Shown here: positions 52,684 to 59,136 of the stretch, one piece after another | Layout of the letters: each line of letters begins with the position of its first letter | How positions within the stretch are numbered: position 1 is the first letter of the stretch | Assembly: GCF_003367375.1 (NCBI RefSeq) | Contig: NZ_CP031416.1 | Coordinates: forward strand, 813,501 to 877,500 | Origin: Gallaecimonas mangrovi | Lineage (GTDB): Bacteria; Pseudomonadota; Gammaproteobacteria; Enterobacterales; Gallaecimonadaceae | DNA: 64,000 bases | Reading direction: 5' to 3' | The notes under the pieces: generated by a model | What the model was told of the DNA's origin: nothing | What the model saw: only the letters and a program-made list of their open reading frames with translations | Database searches by the model: none | Made by a program: the position numbers and the translations under genes

Positions 52684-54174
52684 ATGGCCATAGAAACCGA
52701 ACTGAAATTACGTGTTGCCAACCAACTGGATACTGACAGCTGGCTGCAACCATTACTCGGCGGCGCCCAAGCGCGTCACCTAAAGAACACCTACTTTGAT
52801 ACGCCTGAAGGCTTACTGGCCAAATGGCGTATGGGCCTGCGTATTCGTGAGGTCGATGGCAAACGTGAGCAAACCCTAAAGCTCGCTGGTAACTCTGGGT
52901 CTGCATTATCTGCCAGACCTGAATATAACCTGCCCATCGATAGCAACAAGCCCCGGCTAAGTGCTTTTCCTGATGAAGTATGGCCTGCCGGCACCGATGT
53001 GCATGAACTTGAAGAAGCGCTGGTCGCGGTTTTTAGCACCGACTTTGACCGGCAAAAAACCTTGGTTGCTGGCGAGCAAGTCGAGTTTTGCTGGGACCAG
53101 GGCGAAGTCAGTGCCAACAGCCATTGCTTGCCCATTCGTGAGCTGGAGCTGGAAATGCAGGGCGAGGATTTAGCGGCGCTATTTCGCTTTGCCGAAGGCC
53201 TGCTTCGCGACGGCGTGCAATGCTTTGGCCTTTCCAAAGCCGCCCGTGGCAACTGGCTTGCCAACGGGCAGGGTAATCTGCCGCTGGATGAGCCGATGGC
53301 CGATGTGCAACGGCAAATGAGCAACGAAGAGGTTCTGGCCCAGGGCTTGGGCACTGCCATTAGCCAATGGCAGCAAGCCGAAGATGTGTTTTTATTGCAT
53401 CCCGGCTGGCAGCCGCTGTTAGCGCTTGCCGATGCGCTGCAGTATTTTCGCCAGGTATTAAGCCTGTTTGGCGGCCTGGTACCACGCAAGGCCTCTAGCG
53501 AACTGCGCCAGGAATGCCAATGGCTGGCCGACCAGCTCGCCCAGGCCCAGGCTCAGGTGCGTGTTGCCAAGGTGCTGTCGGCCAAAGGCAGCAGTTTTAG
53601 AAAGCTCAACATCAGTGATGAGCTGCTAGAGCAAGCCAATGAGCGCCAACAGGCGCTGCCGAATTTAAGCTTCTTTACCCAGCTGTTTGCCTCGGAAAGG
53701 GCCAACCGCTTGAAGCTGGCTGCGCTGAAGTTTGTGGCGCTGCGCCAATGGCGCAGCAAGCTCGATGATGCCGCCATTGCCGAGCTTGAAAAGCCCATCA
53801 AATGGTTTGCTGACACCCATTTAGCCAAATCCTTCGCCGACCTTAAACGGCACTTGGTGCGGGGCATGGCGCTGCCACAATACCTGGACCAAGAAGGCCG
53901 AGTGCTGCGCTATTTGACCTGCTGCCGCACCTTTGGGGCGCTCTATCCTGACCAATTTAGCGAACATAGTGTTGAGCAGTGGCAAGACTTTATGTTTGGT
54001 TTGGAAGAGGCGCGGCGTCTGGAAGGCATTGGGCAGTTGGCGGCGAGGCTAGACTTGTCTGATGACGATGCCGAGCAACTGGAAAACTGGCTTAATCGCA
54101 AGCGCCAGTCTTTGGTGGTGGCGATGGATCAGTCGCGTCAGCTGGGGCTGAATCAGCAGGTATTCTGGCCCTAA
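52684..54174 (+). CDS. ygiF: inorganic triphosphatase YgiF (CYTH + CHAD)
   Basis: 496 residues. CYTH domain in the first ~200 residues, starting with the ExExK motif MAIETELKL, then a helical CHAD domain with polyphosphate-binding histidines (CRTFGALYPDQFSEH region). E. coli YgiF hydrolyses tripolyphosphate. Its 3' end overlaps the convergent ion-channel gene by 83 bp, a long overlap of two protein-coding ends. Confidence 0.92.
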   Translation: MAIETELKLRVANQLDTDSWLQPLLGGAQARHLKNTYFDTPEGLLAKWRMGLRIREVDGKREQTLKLAGNSGSALSARPEYNLPIDSNKPRLSAFPDEVWPAGTDVHELEEALVAVFSTDFDRQKTLVAGEQVEFCWDQGEVSANSHCLPIRELELEMQGEDLAALFRFAEGLLRDGVQCFGLSKAARGNWLANGQGNLPLDEPMADVQRQMSNEEVLAQGLGTAISQWQQAEDVFLLHPGWQPLLALADALQYFRQVLSLFGGLVPRKASSELRQECQWLADQLAQAQAQVRVAKVLSAKGSSFRKLNISDELLEQANERQQALPNLSFFTQLFASERANRLKLAALKFVALRQWRSKLDDAAIAELEKPIKWFADTHLAKSFADLKRHLVRGMALPQYLDQEGRVLRYLTCCRTFGALYPDQFSEHSVEQWQDFMFGLEEARRLEGIGQLAARLDLSDDDAEQLENWLNRKRQSLVVAMDQSRQLGLNQQVFWP

Positions 54175-54916
54175 TATCAGCGCTGAGCACACCAAGCTGT
54201 GTGCTCAGCGCTTTGATATCACCTTCAAGCTGTTCCAACTTATGACGAATTTCCCTGTGATTGAGCTCTTCTGTTTCACTGCGCCGGGTGAGTTTGGCGG
54301 CCATTAAACCGGTTAAACCACCAAATAACGACACCCCCGAGATAATCAACACCGCGCTTATTACCCTGCCTGCGGTAGTAACGGGGTAATAGTCGCCATA
54401 GCCAACGGTAGAAATAGTTACCAGCGACCACCAAATGGCGTCTTCTGCCGAGTGAATATTGGAATGGGGGTTAGCGGCTTCTGCCATCAATATGGCAATG
54501 GAGCTGCCGCCTATCACCAGTACTAAAATCACCAGCATGGTTGCCAGCACCACGTTGGTGCTTTCTTTCATCAGCTGCTGAATAACCTGGTTGGCCATGC
54601 GCAAAATGCGCAGCACCCTTATCACTTGAAAGAGCCGCCCGTAGCGCAGTACGTCTATCACCGGGATGCTGGAGATAAGGTCAATCCAATGGGTTTTAAA
54701 AAAGGCCCATTTTTGTTTGGCGCGTACCAGGCCAACCGTAAAGCGGGTCAGGAAAATCACGCAAACGCCATTGTCGATAAGCAGCAGCAATTCCCGCTCG
54801 TCATGATTGACCGGCGCAAATTGCAGCGCCAGCACCACGGCTACGGCCACTACCGACAGCACCATCATCGCCAGTTCAATGGGCGTGGGTGCCAGCACCC
54901 TTAATTCGGGTTTCAC
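54092..54916 (-). CDS. voltage-gated-type potassium channel (ion transporter)
   Basis: 274 residues, GTG start at 54916 with AAGGACA 9 nt upstream; this starts only two bases after the stop codon of the preceding gene. Six membrane segments, an S4-like RLFQVIRVLRILRMANQ stretch and the selectivity filter TVGYGDYYP near residue 175. A C-terminal coiled coil (HKLEQLEGDIKALSTQ) follows. It shares 83 bp with the end of ygiF on the other strand. It ends an operon with yjfI and two small genes. Confidence 0.88.
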   Translation of the reverse strand: MKPELRVLAPTPIELAMMVLSVVAVAVVLALQFAPVNHDERELLLLIDNGVCVIFLTRFTVGLVRAKQKWAFFKTHWIDLISSIPVIDVLRYGRLFQVIRVLRILRMANQVIQQLMKESTNVVLATMLVILVLVIGGSSIAILMAEAANPHSNIHSAEDAIWWSLVTISTVGYGDYYPVTTAGRVISAVLIISGVSLFGGLTGLMAAKLTRRSETEELNHREIRHKLEQLEGDIKALSTQLGVLSADIRARIPADSAPADATDPSPPPKTGACD

Positions 54917-54917
54917 G

Positions 54918-55250
54918 TTAATTGTCCTTAAGTAACGTATCTGCTTGCTCTGCCAATTCTTGCATGACTTTTTTCTTAATTTCCAATTGGTCGTCGGCGG
55001 CAACACCGTAACGTTTGCCCAAACGTTGGTAGTCGTCGCCGTTGAGAGTCACCGTTAGCCGCGGCCGTTTCGGGCGGGTAGTAACGGGAAGCTCAAGCAT
55101 GCTGCGAATTTGGTCGGACGGGCTCAGCCCTTCTTCAAGGGCCGCTAGGCGAATGGCATATTGCAGCCGGGTATCTAAATCGAATGCCACCTGTACCGCC
55201 TTCATGGCGGCGATGGAAGACGCCCACTTTTGCTCCAGCTTTTTACTCAT
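54918..55250 (-). CDS. conserved hypothetical protein, YjfI operon
   Basis: 110 residues from the ATG at 55250, which has GGAG 5 nt upstream; a TTG at 55253 is also in frame. It overlaps the previous gene's stop by 8 bp. Soluble, helical; RLQYAIRLAALEEGLSPSDQIRSML resembles ribbon-helix-helix-like elements, but the family is not recognised. Sits between the coiled-coil gene and the channel gene, so it is probably an accessory of that membrane system. Confidence 0.75.
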   Translation of the reverse strand: MSKKLEQKWASSIAAMKAVQVAFDLDTRLQYAIRLAALEEGLSPSDQIRSMLELPVTTRPKRPRLTVTLNGDDYQRLGKRYGVAADDQLEIKKKVMQELAEQADTLLKDN

Positions 55251-55809
55251 CAAGCTCCCCTTTTAGCCTTTTTAGCACGCTGGTGGCGTTACTTTGAGGC
55301 GTGTTTTTAGGGGCTTTGGGCGAGCTGGCTTCACGCTCACGAATGGCATTAATCGCCGCTTTGGTGCCGCCTTTGGGGCGGCTTAATAGCGGCGCCAGGG
55401 TGCCTTCCATGCGGGCCAGCTCTTTAGCGGCGCTCAACAGGCTGAGCTGGCGGCGAAGGTCAATAAGCTGCCTTTCTAGCTGCAGATACAGCTGTTGCTG
55501 CTGGCTAAGGTGTTGCTGTTGGTTAACCAGCGCCGCTTGCTGGTTTTCAAGGGCTGCTAGCTGCTCGGCTGCGGTGTTGAGCGTGGCGGTGTCAGCCTTG
55601 GCTAGCATTGCCTTTAACCGGCTTTCTTCGGCGCTAATTCGGGTGCTCAGTTGCTGCTGTTGCTCGGCTAACAGTGGCAACTGCTGCTGCCATTTTGGCT
55701 GCTGCTTGGCTAAATGGTCGCGCTCCCTCTGCGCGGCTTTTATCGCCTGTTCAATGTTTTTGCTATTAGGCTGGGACTTGGCAGCCAGCAGATCTTTTAA
55801 CAGCGTCAT
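55243..55809 (-). CDS. coiled-coil hypothetical protein, YjfI operon
   Basis: 188 residues, almost wholly Gln/Leu/Ala-rich coiled coil from about residue 20 to 150. No membrane segment. In E. coli the position after yjfI is held by yjfJ, a PspA/IM30 protein of 232 residues; this one is shorter and no clear PspA motif is visible, so it is a functional analogue at most. It starts at the A shared with the yjfI TGA. Confidence 0.75.
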   Translation of the reverse strand: MTLLKDLLAAKSQPNSKNIEQAIKAAQRERDHLAKQQPKWQQQLPLLAEQQQQLSTRISAEESRLKAMLAKADTATLNTAAEQLAALENQQAALVNQQQHLSQQQQLYLQLERQLIDLRRQLSLLSAAKELARMEGTLAPLLSRPKGGTKAAINAIREREASSPKAPKNTPQSNATSVLKRLKGELDE

Positions 55810-56246
55810 CAGCAGGCCTCCAGAAAATGACTCATGTCATCCAGGATGTCTAAGGTGTTGTCCGACAACACCACCAGCTCATGCTCAATATCAAAAAGGC
55901 TGGAATGCACCGACAAGGCGCCAAAAATGACAAAACGCTCGCCCATTTTGGCAAAGGCCGACAACGGCATGGGAATATTCAGCTCCAGCATGGTTTCCAG
56001 CATGGCAACGCGCTTGTCAGCGTTAACTTCGCTTTCGTCCCACAAAAAACTCATCACCAGCACTTGATCTTCGGCCACCGATAAAAAGATGGGCAGCTCT
56101 TCCCGGCCTTGCACCACAATTTGTAAAACCTCGACATCGCCAGTTATTGGCAGGCAGTCAAAGCTGCAGCCGGTGGGGCTGTTTTCGGCCAAACCGTTTA
56201 GGTGGCGGGCGATAATATCGGCAGTTACTGGCTGAGTGGCTGGCAC
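55809..56246 (-). CDS. yjfI: DUF2170 family protein YjfI
   Basis: 145 residues, GTG start at 56246. IFLSVAEDQVLVMSFLWDE and MPLSAFAKMGERFVIFGALS are DUF2170 (YjfI) features. Function not known; genes of this group are usually beside PspA-like, ion-channel and glutathionylspermidine-related genes. First gene of a four-gene operon with overlapping ends. Divergent from glnE. Confidence 0.82.
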   Translation of the reverse strand: MPATQPVTADIIARHLNGLAENSPTGCSFDCLPITGDVEVLQIVVQGREELPIFLSVAEDQVLVMSFLWDESEVNADKRVAMLETMLELNIPMPLSAFAKMGERFVIFGALSVHSSLFDIEHELVVLSDNTLDILDDMSHFLEAC

Positions 56247-56304
56247 GAGGGGGCCTTTGGGTTTTATGCTCTCAATGCCCTTTGTCTAACAAAATCGACA
56301 TAAT

Positions 56305-59136
56305 ATGTCTACCGAGCAACTTTTAGTCCGTCAGGCGGATAAAGCCCTTAATAGCTTGATTGAGCGCCATCCGCATTGTTTAGAAGGCCTGAGCGAAGCC
56401 CAGTTGGAACGGCTGCGCCAGGGTCTGAGTTGCTCTGATTTTTTACTGGCGCAGCTGCTGCGCCACCCCGATTGGCTACCTTGGTTATTGGCGCAAACCG
56501 AAGCCAGTATCCAAGGGGGCCCCTGGCAGCCGCCGCTGGCAGAAAGCCTTGCCGAGACTGAGGTGCAAAGCTTGCTGCGCCAATTTCGCCACCGCTATTT
56601 ATCGGCCCTGGCACTGTTGGGGGCTAACCAGAACATTGCTGAAGTGACGCGCCTACATTGCCTGTCGAATCTTGCTGAAGGGCTTATCAGTGGCGCCCGT
56701 GACTGGGTATATCAGCAGCAATGCCAGCTGCGCGGCACACCCACCGATAGCGACGGCAACGCGGTGCCCTTGCTGGTGCTGGGTATGGGGAAACTCGGGG
56801 GCAGCGAGCTTAATTTTTCCTCTGATATTGACCTGATTTTTGTTTACCCCAGAAGCGGTTCAACCCAAGGCGGCCGCAAGGAAATTGATAATCACGAGTT
56901 TTTTACTCGCCAGGGCCAAAAACTCATTCAATTGCTAGATGCCGTTACCGAAGACGGCTTTGCCTATCGCGTGGATATGCGGCTAAGGCCCTTTGGCGAC
57001 TCTGGCCCCTTGGTGATGTCTTTTGACGCATTGGAAGATTACTACCAGTCACAAGGGCGCGAGTGGGAGCGCTATGCCATGGTGAAAGGGCGGCTGATGG
57101 GCGGCGGCCTGGGTTATGGCGAAGAGCTAGAACAGCTATTGCGGCCCTTTGTTTATCGCCGTTATTTGGATTACTCGGCCATTCATTCCCTGCGCGATAT
57201 GAAGCGGCTGATTGAAGCCGAAGTGCGCCGCCGCGGCTTAACCGACAACATCAAATTGGGCGCGGGCGGCATTCGCGAAGTGGAGTTTTTGGTTCAGGTC
57301 TTTCAGCTTATCCGCGGCGGCCGTGAACCGGCGCTGCGTACCCCTTCGCTACTGGCAGCGCTGGTGATGCTACCTGAACTTGGCGCTATCTCTGACGCCG
57401 AAGCCCAGGCGTTAAGGGCGGCCTATTTGTTTCTTCGGACCAGCGAAAACAACTTGCAAGCCATCAACGACGAGCAAACCCAAACCTTACCTACCGAGCC
57501 CCTAAATCGGGCGCGCTTGGCCACCATGCAAGGGTTCGGCAGTTTTGAAGCCTACCTAAAAGCCCTTACCGGGCATCAACAGCTGGTACATGGCCTGTTT
57601 CGCGAAGTGATAAGCGAGGAAGGCCCCGAGCAAGAAACCCCAGAGCCACTTAGAACCCTGATGGCAGCGCCCTGGTCCCGCGATGAAGTCATTAGCGCTT
57701 TTCGTGAAGAAGCGCTGCCCGAGCCAGAGGCGTTGGCCGACGCCTTTTTGTCGTTAAAAGAAAACCTTAGCCGGCGCAGTATCGGCGAGCGTGGCCGTAA
57801 GCAACTGGAAAACCTCTTGCCGCAGTTATTGTTAGGGTTAAAAGAGCAGCTGCAACCGGTGAAAACCTTGGCCCGGTTAGGCAAGCTTATTGAGCAGGTC
57901 GCCAGCCGCACCGCCTATTTGGAGCTGTTGGTAGAGAACCCCGGTGCCCGGGCGCAGCTGATTAAACTCACCGGCGCCTCGGCTTTTATCAGTGAGCGGC
58001 TGATACAAATGCCGATATTGCTTGATGAGCTTATCGACCCACGCCATTTGTATCAGCCGTTAGGGTTTGACGATTACGCCACCGAGCTGCGCCGTTTTAT
58101 GCTGCGGATTGAGCCGGACGACCAAGAAGGGCAAATGGAGGCGCTACGCCAGTTTAAAGCGGCGCAAACCCTGCGTATTGCTGCGGCCGATGTGACCGGT
58201 GTACTGCCGCTGATGAAAGTGAGCGACCACCTTACTCACCTTGCCGAAACCCTGCTGGCGGCCTGTTTGCCGTTAGCGTGGCAGGATTTGGTCAAACGCC
58301 ATGGTGAACCTGTTGGCCTTAGCGCCGAACACCCTGGCATTTTGGTGGTGGCTTACGGCAAGTTGGGCGGATTAGAGCTTGGCTACAGCTCCGATCTGGA
58401 CTTGGTTTTTCTGACCGACCTTGACGATGACAGTGCCTACCAGGAAACCCCGGGGCCAAGAGCCATTACCGTTAAAGAGTTTTTCTTCAAGCTGGTGCAG
58501 CGGTTAAGCCACTGGCTGACCACCCGTACCTTAAGCGGGGTTTTGTATGACATTGATATGCGCCTTAGGCCATCGGGTGCCTCCGGGCTTTTGGTCAGCA
58601 CCCTTAAAAGTTTCGAGCAATATCAACGGGATGAAGCCTGGCTTTGGGAGCATCAAGCCCTTGTGAGAGCAAGGCCAGTGCTGGGCGACATTGCGCTTCG
58701 TAAGCGCTTTGCCGATATTCGCCTGGCTGCCCTTTGCAAGCCTCGGCAGCCGTTAGCCTTGCAAGAAGAGGTAAGGGCGATGCGCCAGAAAATGCGCCAG
58801 CATCTGGATACGTCAGGCCAGGGCCTGTTTGATGTGAAGCAAGGTCGCGGCGGCATTACCGATATTGAGTTTTTAGTGCAGTATTGGCTGCTGGCCAGCG
58901 GTCAACAGGCGCTGTTTCGTTATTCAGATAATATCCGCCAACTTGACGCGTTAAGTGTGGCAGGGGGGATTGATGCCAGCCTTGCCGAGCGCTTGGCTGA
59001 TATTTACGTCACCCTTCGCCAGCAGCAGCACCGGCTTAGCCTTGATGAAGGCGGGAGGAGGGTGGATGACAACCTGTTCCTTGAAGAGCGCGCCTTTGTC
59101 AGCGCGCTCTGGGATAAGGAACTGGGCACTCAGTAG
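56305..59136 (+). CDS. glnE: glutamine synthetase adenylyltransferase/deadenylase GlnE
   Basis: 943 residues. Two nucleotidyltransferase domains, GMGKLGGSELNFSSDIDL near residue 155 (deadenylation) and AYGKLGGLELGYSSDLDL near 680 (adenylylation), with a helical regulatory region between. It adds or removes AMP on GlnA according to PII state. Its end overlaps lpxL by 7 bp (convergent). Located beside the LPS genes, as in E. coli glnE-hldE. Confidence 0.95.
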   Translation: MSTEQLLVRQADKALNSLIERHPHCLEGLSEAQLERLRQGLSCSDFLLAQLLRHPDWLPWLLAQTEASIQGGPWQPPLAESLAETEVQSLLRQFRHRYLSALALLGANQNIAEVTRLHCLSNLAEGLISGARDWVYQQQCQLRGTPTDSDGNAVPLLVLGMGKLGGSELNFSSDIDLIFVYPRSGSTQGGRKEIDNHEFFTRQGQKLIQLLDAVTEDGFAYRVDMRLRPFGDSGPLVMSFDALEDYYQSQGREWERYAMVKGRLMGGGLGYGEELEQLLRPFVYRRYLDYSAIHSLRDMKRLIEAEVRRRGLTDNIKLGAGGIREVEFLVQVFQLIRGGREPALRTPSLLAALVMLPELGAISDAEAQALRAAYLFLRTSENNLQAINDEQTQTLPTEPLNRARLATMQGFGSFEAYLKALTGHQQLVHGLFREVISEEGPEQETPEPLRTLMAAPWSRDEVISAFREEALPEPEALADAFLSLKENLSRRSIGERGRKQLENLLPQLLLGLKEQLQPVKTLARLGKLIEQVASRTAYLELLVENPGARAQLIKLTGASAFISERLIQMPILLDELIDPRHLYQPLGFDDYATELRRFMLRIEPDDQEGQMEALRQFKAAQTLRIAAADVTGVLPLMKVSDHLTHLAETLLAACLPLAWQDLVKRHGEPVGLSAEHPGILVVAYGKLGGLELGYSSDLDLVFLTDLDDDSAYQETPGPRAITVKEFFFKLVQRLSHWLTTRTLSGVLYDIDMRLRPSGASGLLVSTLKSFEQYQRDEAWLWEHQALVRARPVLGDIALRKRFADIRLAALCKPRQPLALQEEVRAMRQKMRQHLDTSGQGLFDVKQGRGGITDIEFLVQYWLLASGQQALFRYSDNIRQLDALSVAGGIDASLAERLADIYVTLRQQQHRLSLDEGGRRVDDNLFLEERAFVSALWDKELGTQ

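Follow-up and report, generated by a model that had tools for sequence, protein, structure and literature searches.

In this study, we analysed a compact four-gene operon in a 64,000-nucleotide stretch of the Gallaecimonas mangrovi contig NZ_CP031416.1 (hereafter, the window). The operon is probably a reduced member of the CesT/Tir-PspA operon class, in which a 110-residue ribbon-helix-helix (RHH) protein would act as a repressor that binds the palindrome GACATAWTATGTC before its own operon and before htpX, as part of a relay for membrane damage. The palindrome shared by the operon and htpX points to an undescribed membrane-stress regulon. Neither this palindrome nor the ancestral full operon nor htpX as a second target appears in an earlier reading of the window from its letters (the sequence-only reading), which had described a four-gene operon with a coiled-coil gene in the place of the PspA-like yjfJ. 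The features concerned are as follows, in window coordinates.

52684-54174, plus strand: CYTH/CHAD protein (ygiF-like), convergent flank (PF01928, PF05235).
54092-54916, minus strand: voltage-gated-type potassium (K+) channel, 274 residues, GTG start (PF00520, E = 6e-20; PF07885, E = 4.8e-17).
54918-55250, minus strand: predicted tandem RHH regulator, 110 residues (alignment of 36 sequences, structure model, VIA-align).
55243-55809, minus strand: coiled coil, 188 residues, apparently a degenerate YjfJ-type PspA, ESCRT-III-like (profile comparison, controls, structure model, Foldseek).
55809-56246, minus strand: DUF2170/YjfI/BacA-type CesT-Tir-like protein, 145 residues, GTG start (PF09938, 115 bits, E = 2.9e-33).
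56297-56309: palindrome GACATAATATGTC, a candidate operator for the RHH protein; it overlaps the ATG of glnE and stands 50 bp ahead of the GTG of DUF2170.
56305-59136, plus strand: glnE, divergent flank outside the operon (PF03710, 515 bits).

All four open reading frames (ORFs) were found where the sequence-only reading had placed them, on the minus strand, each overlapping or abutting the next. The DUF2170 and coil genes overlap by 4 bp (ATGA), the coil and 110-residue genes by 8 bp, and a 1-nucleotide gap separates the latter from the channel gene. A crude sigma-70 scan of 53900-56700 on both strands yielded no promoter, which neither shows nor excludes separate promoters.

The 13-letter palindrome GACATAWTATGTC is common to the upstream regions of the operon, and the copy at 56297-56309 is the only match within one mismatch in the window, where 0.03 would be expected. 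When 59 relatives were searched for the RHH gene with the window protein, the exact palindrome was found in 18 of the 21 genomes with the gene, compared with 1 of the 38 without it (Fisher, 3.6e-11). Counted by genus, it was found in 9 of 10 versus 1 of 29 (Fisher, 4.6e-7); this is the fairer count, given that the genomes are related and Fisher values are consequently overstated. In 274 genomes drawn evenly across the class, where the gene was sought with a profile of the 36-sequence alignment, the palindrome was present in 7 of 10 RHH-positive versus 3 of 264 RHH-negative genomes. Stray palindromes occur at background level, since the reversed pattern, used as a control, matched 8 of the 274 class-sample genomes (and none of the 59 relatives). 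Among the combined 330 distinct genomes, the counts were 23 of 29 and 4 of 301. Since DUF2170 (found in 19/274 genomes of the class sample) is present in every one of the 29 RHH genomes, the useful contrast lies within DUF2170 carriers, where the palindrome was found in 23 of the 29 genomes with RHH but in only 1 of the 12 without it (Fisher, 3.8e-5). In that sole RHH-negative genome, G258, the site and the DUF2170 gene are on different contigs. Moreover, presence of the palindrome varies in step with RHH inside three families (f6, f7 and f25). Four further families (G110, G135, G254 and G297) have exact sites directly ahead of DUF2170 in the RHH operon. In a fifth (G236), the exact pair accompanies a second copy of DUF2170, and the RHH operon itself has a site with one mismatch. 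Full operons usually carry one site toward glnE and, before DUF2170, two more that are spaced 31-39 bp apart, compared with a single site in the window.

The G. mangrovi genome has only one other exact palindrome, located 38 bp ahead of a GTG that is probably the start codon of htpX (NCBIfam PRK05457, 443 bits); one further copy carries a mismatch. When relatives with exact sites away from the operon were inspected (G009 4164989, G053:C107 and G016:C11 being left out), a site was found before htpX in 10 of 15 RHH genomes. At eight of these ten promoters (L166, L167, L169, L171, L172, L174, L187 and L192), the TTGAAA of CTTGAAA is located 16 bp from a TATTAT at the palindrome core. Because TATTAT lies in the palindrome, a bound protein would cover the htpX -10 element, and this placement therefore argues for repression. 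CTTGAAA resembles a heat-shock -35 element; together with TATTAT it looks like a promoter, perhaps of the heat-shock type, that is covered by the operator.

Elsewhere, sites away from the operon were found before SPFH/NfeD genes (8 loci in 7 genomes), YqiJ (2), NhaA (3) and a PspA gene (1, as a pair), and before a canonical pspA one small ORF further on (1). Ion channel genes are preceded by an exact site in G019 and by a one-mismatch site in G058, where no channel gene was seen in the operon stretch. Sites also lie before genes for an aminopeptidase, an M16 peptidase, a sulfate-permease family protein, lipoproteins, a membrane-fusion protein and unknown proteins. The family names of these targets were tested for part of the sites, and the rest were assigned by similarity to the tested ones. 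The extra sites of G110 and G297 had no recognised target, and a stray site of G022 is inside an ORF.

Structure prediction, which the sequence-only reading had proposed, was applied to the coil and to the 110-residue protein. The model of the 110-residue protein, built from the alignment of 36 sequences, has the order β-α-α-β-α-α, that is, two β-α-α units (pLDDT 74.7, pTM 0.52). VIA-align placed F relaxosome chains (which we take to be TraY), single-chain Arc, AvtR and DndE in its top nine rows at Z 5.4-6.9, followed by 4.0, although values below 8 are not proof of a fold. Foldseek alone gave no clear match for this model, a profile search of the PDB gave no significant sequence match for the family, and neither Pfam nor NCBIfam gave an RHH family match for the protein. 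MIT domains bind ESCRT-III; a weak PDB profile match of the family to the Vps4 MIT domain (E = 0.34) was dropped in view of the β-α-α-β-α-α model. The 110-residue protein is thus predicted, on the basis of its model, to be a single-chain tandem RHH DNA-binding regulator. According to the accessible portions of Ravi et al. 2024 (PMC11237479), a gene for an RHH transcription factor stands last in some operons of the CesT/Tir-PspA class, and the 110-residue gene would be the RHH gene noted there.

Several observations weigh against an RHH repressor acting at this palindrome. The RHH model is of only moderate confidence, in keeping with the pLDDT and Z values given above, and relatedness inflates the Fisher values. 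No exact palindrome was found in 6 of the 29 RHH-positive genomes, of which five have 2-mismatch variants before DUF2170: GACATTTAATGTC in three (one genus) and half-changed copies in two (one genus). In G290, the RHH gene is not beside DUF2170, and no site within 2 mismatches occurs in the surrounding 11 kb. G026 is without a site at its DUF2170 or RHH loci, yet has five sites elsewhere. (In G020, only 15 bp separate the DUF2170 gene from a contig end, which leaves its upstream region out of view.) Many of the sites in other genomes precede genes without a discernible membrane link. Finally, there is no clear -35/-10 pair at the window's own promoter, making repression there less certain. There is some room for the view that the palindrome belongs to another, unlinked transcription factor that happens to share the distribution of RHH, and that the small protein regulates by protein contact or otherwise; binding of the palindrome by the RHH protein is itself inferred, and the moderate confidence of the fold, the lack of an RHH family match in Pfam and NCBIfam, and G290 and G026 would suit such a factor. 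We nevertheless regard it as unlikely, since the palindrome tracks RHH rather than DUF2170, also inside f6, f7 and f25, and several families have sites at the operon that contains the RHH gene.

Variants of the operator were also noted, namely CCCATA half-sites in L218 and L219 (G133 and G260) and GACATTTAATGTC in L138, L140 and L206-L208 (g12 genomes). Each variant was seen here in one genus only, which suggests that operator and RHH protein change together. A literature search with one strand of the palindrome, GACATAATATGTC, matched only unrelated plant work; the other strand was not searched.

We next consider the 188-residue coil. When the coil was compared by hhalign with a profile of 95 PspAs, the two matched over the full length (columns 1-188) with a probability of 97.6 and E = 1.3e-11; default settings gave a probability of 95.8 over columns 19-185. 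Scored with the PspA profile of the relatives, the window coil reached 19.9 bits and its G001 counterpart 26.4 bits, and a 207-residue protein of G028 reached 144 bits, making it an intermediate between coil and PspA. A C-terminal VLxRLK-type tail is present in the coil and in 94 of the 95 operon PspAs, compared with none of the 5 canonical PspAs whose ends were compared. The coil model, built from five input sequences (pLDDT 80.7, pTM 0.55), has helices at 3-9, 16-34, 37-68, 74-142, 149-162 and 175-182, an order that is PspA-like, and the top 16 rows of a Foldseek search of the PDB were all Vipp1, PspA or Snf7. The coil therefore looks like a fast-evolving, degenerate YjfJ-type PspA, as judged from profile and model. 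The sequence-only reading was right that the coil occupies the position of PspA/YjfJ, but the coil is a worn form of PspA and not an unrelated replacement. Likewise, the two proteins it had called unrecognised can both be placed, as a PspA remnant and as a predicted tandem RHH protein.

The rapid change of the coil raises the question of whether its gene is a decaying, functionless pseudogene, in which case the operon would now consist of DUF2170, RHH and the channel only. Between the window and G001, the coil is 46% identical, compared with 88-89% for RHH and DUF2170 (89% for DUF2170), and the nonsynonymous divergence (dN) is 0.56 for the coil versus 0.07 for DUF2170. The order of conservation is thereby reversed relative to full operons, where mean identity is higher for PspA (0.78) than for DUF2170 (0.73) over 105 pairs from 15 chosen loci, PspA being lower in 14 of the 105. 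However, the coil gene has stayed open in four species at 182-188 residues, overlaps the gene upstream and retains 50 invariant positions among the four. Its dN/dS by NG86 was 0.28-0.60 over six pairs, with the synonymous divergence (dS) saturated (YN00 gave no values for most pairs). A pseudogene is accordingly quite improbable.

Even less can be said for the coil being an unrelated helical protein that replaced PspA and matches the profile through coiled-coil bias, which we consider very improbable. In its favour, the coil is missing from the PF04012 (PspA/IM30) matches listed at E up to 10, and the one protein of the genome that does match PF04012 is a canonical-looking PspA elsewhere; VIA-align did not separate ESCRT-III from the rest, with unrelated coiled coils at Z 9-11 among some ESCRT-III rows; and the best Foldseek E was 4.9e-3. 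However, the coil-PspA profile score was 62.5, compared with 17.6 ± 3.8 (maximum 37.7) for 200 heptad-block shuffles; 100 column shuffles did not exceed 23.6, and reversed profiles scored 18-20. On these controls, coiled-coil bias was rejected as the source of the match, and the conserved tail and the G028 intermediate also speak against it.

Gene order was surveyed at the best 80 of 99 relatives, drawn from named genomes and mostly Shewanella. PspA and the 110-residue gene were together in all 80 loci, and the channel was also present in 74. The four-gene order, including the 4-bp overlap of DUF2170 and coil, is shared with three genus-mates (G001, G003 and G004), bearing out the conserved order on which the sequence-only reading had depended. 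In a fourth genus-mate, G002, the same place holds genes for a lipoprotein, DUF350, a seven-transmembrane (7TM)-spermidine synthase, DUF2170, PspA, a DUF4178-like protein, RHH and the channel; the lipoprotein and DUF4178 labels were taken from Ravi et al., and neither gene gave a Pfam match. Most other fetched relatives also have the full operon. The window operon is without the 7TM-spermidine synthase, DUF350, lipoprotein and DUF4178 genes. A search of the G. mangrovi genome for the synthase found only a partial 32% match elsewhere, and the other three genes were sought at the locus only. In a tree of DUF2170 and RHH, the four reduced species group together (support 100), joined by G002 (92) and then by G028 of another family (69). 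The operon of G028 is likewise shortened and its PspA has diverged, which suggests that shrinkage took place twice, in the four-species lineage and in G028.

Side observations were made in other families. In L213, L214 and L220, the gene after RHH encodes a K+ channel with an RCK-type domain rather than the six-transmembrane voltage-sensor type; the slot is constant and the channel type differs. In L132 (G020), DUF2170, PspA and RHH are followed by a membrane protein, a 676-residue flotillin-like protein and a 1770-residue protein (labels by eye). This operon resembles the band-7/AAA+ operon type of Ravi et al., and the RHH gene occurs there too.

From these data, we propose the following model. 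An ancestral operon between glnE and ygiF would have comprised the lipoprotein, DUF350, 7TM-spermidine synthase, DUF2170, PspA, DUF4178-type, RHH and K+ channel genes. In the window lineage, four genes would have been lost from the locus and PspA would have degenerated, with DUF2170, RHH and the channel staying conserved. The tandem RHH protein would bind GACATAWTATGTC and repress both its own operon and the htpX gene of this genome; judging by site placement, its regulon in relatives may also span SPFH/NfeD, YqiJ, NhaA, PspA and ion-channel genes. Membrane damage, relayed via the PspA-like protein and DUF2170, would relieve RHH repression and thereby raise membrane quality control and K+ flux, the channel and NhaA suggesting an arm for ion balance. 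A role in envelope stress and ion flux, much as supposed from the letters, is likely for this operon. In a P. aeruginosa mutant of bacA (DUF2170), the other Bac proteins accumulate, as described in the available text of PMC10948618, which agrees with DUF2170 acting in control.

A bolder version is tentative. DUF2170, YjfJ-type PspA and RHH might form a repressor switch apart from PspF/sigma-54, in which the ESCRT-III-like protein and its CesT-like partner would sense membrane damage and RHH would be titrated off GACATAWTATGTC, inducing htpX, SPFH/NfeD, NhaA and ion channels. The PspA of the window lineage would then have been left without its membrane partners and trimmed to the signalling role, with the VLxRLK tail as a possible contact for DUF2170 or RHH.

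In the classical phage shock system, which responds to membrane stress, pspA lies beside the gene of its regulator PspF, a sigma-54 activator. The window operon likewise has a PspA-type protein beside a predicted regulator gene and a probable link to membrane stress; it differs in its predicted RHH repressor and in a regulon that would include htpX. The predicted β-α-α-β-α-α order is like that of single-chain tandem RHH proteins (F TraY, AvtR and designed single-chain Arc), from which the 110-residue protein differs in sitting in a membrane-stress operon and in having no significant PDB sequence match.

Comparisons with published operons draw on the accessible portions of three reports. The CesT/Tir-PspA operon with 7TM-spermidine synthase is the second group of Ravi et al. 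2024 (PMC11237479), where the operon class and the RHH gene within it are already known. Like that group, the window operon has DUF2170, a PspA-derived protein (recognised as a degenerate homologue and not by PF04012) and, as in some members, an RHH gene (assigned by predicted fold); relatives hold the full set. Unlike that group, the window locus has no polyamine synthase, DUF350, lipoprotein or DUF4178-type gene, its PspA is degenerate, and it ends in a K+ channel, which those portions name for the third group and not the second; nor do they describe an operator or regulon for the second group. As in E. coli yjfIJKL (PMC12492005) and P. aeruginosa bacABCDEF (PMC10948618), DUF2170 is followed by a PspA homologue, but the partner genes differ, and the accessible text mentions no RHH gene for either. 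A sigma-54 site has been proposed for bac (PMC10948618), unlike the window, where none was seen by eye in the 57 bp between the DUF2170 and glnE start codons.

Published work connects DUF2170-PspA operons with heat tolerance in E. coli (PMC12492005) and with biofilm in P. aeruginosa (PMC10948618). In the literature searched, the control of RHH-bearing DUF2170-PspA operons is not described, and no degenerate PspA, tandem RHH arrangement, palindrome or htpX-centred regulon was found. Searches on htpX with an RHH regulon gave an unrelated match only, those on Shewanella htpX-pspA membrane stress gave none, and those on RHH with PspA phage shock yielded only Ravi et al. and a genome paper. The predicted operator is short and exact and its regulon small, so that control can be tested directly; htpX ties the operon to membrane proteolysis. 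Moreover, PspA has apparently decayed on two separate occasions next to a conserved DUF2170-RHH pair, which raises the question of what part of PspA is required for signalling.

Lastly, the ends of the operon and its flanks were examined. The palindrome overlaps the glnE ATG in the window (56305-56309) and in 29 of the 93 loci with glnE, but a feature of the glnE start region alone is ruled out by sites away from glnE, as in the other 64 loci the palindrome is off the glnE start or absent there, and it recurs before DUF2170 (the internal pair), htpX and other genes; we give that explanation almost no credence. Given the overlap with the start codon, glnE might also be affected by the regulator. 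Pfam names only the first and last proteins of the operon, DUF2170 and the channel, and neither Pfam nor NCBIfam has a name for the coil or the 110-residue family. The DUF2170 protein matched the solved DUF2170 structure 8q8o (E = 5.5e-8). The channel has the marks of a voltage-gated K+ channel, namely the filter TVGYGD at residues 170-175, an arginine-bearing S4-like segment (arginines 91, 94, 100, 103 and 106) and an Ion_trans domain; Pfam found no RCK domain in its 274 residues. The 3′ ends of the channel gene and the convergent CYTH/CHAD gene share 83 bp (54092-54174), and this overlap is retained in the genus-mates, at 83 bp in G001 and G003 and 53 bp in G004.

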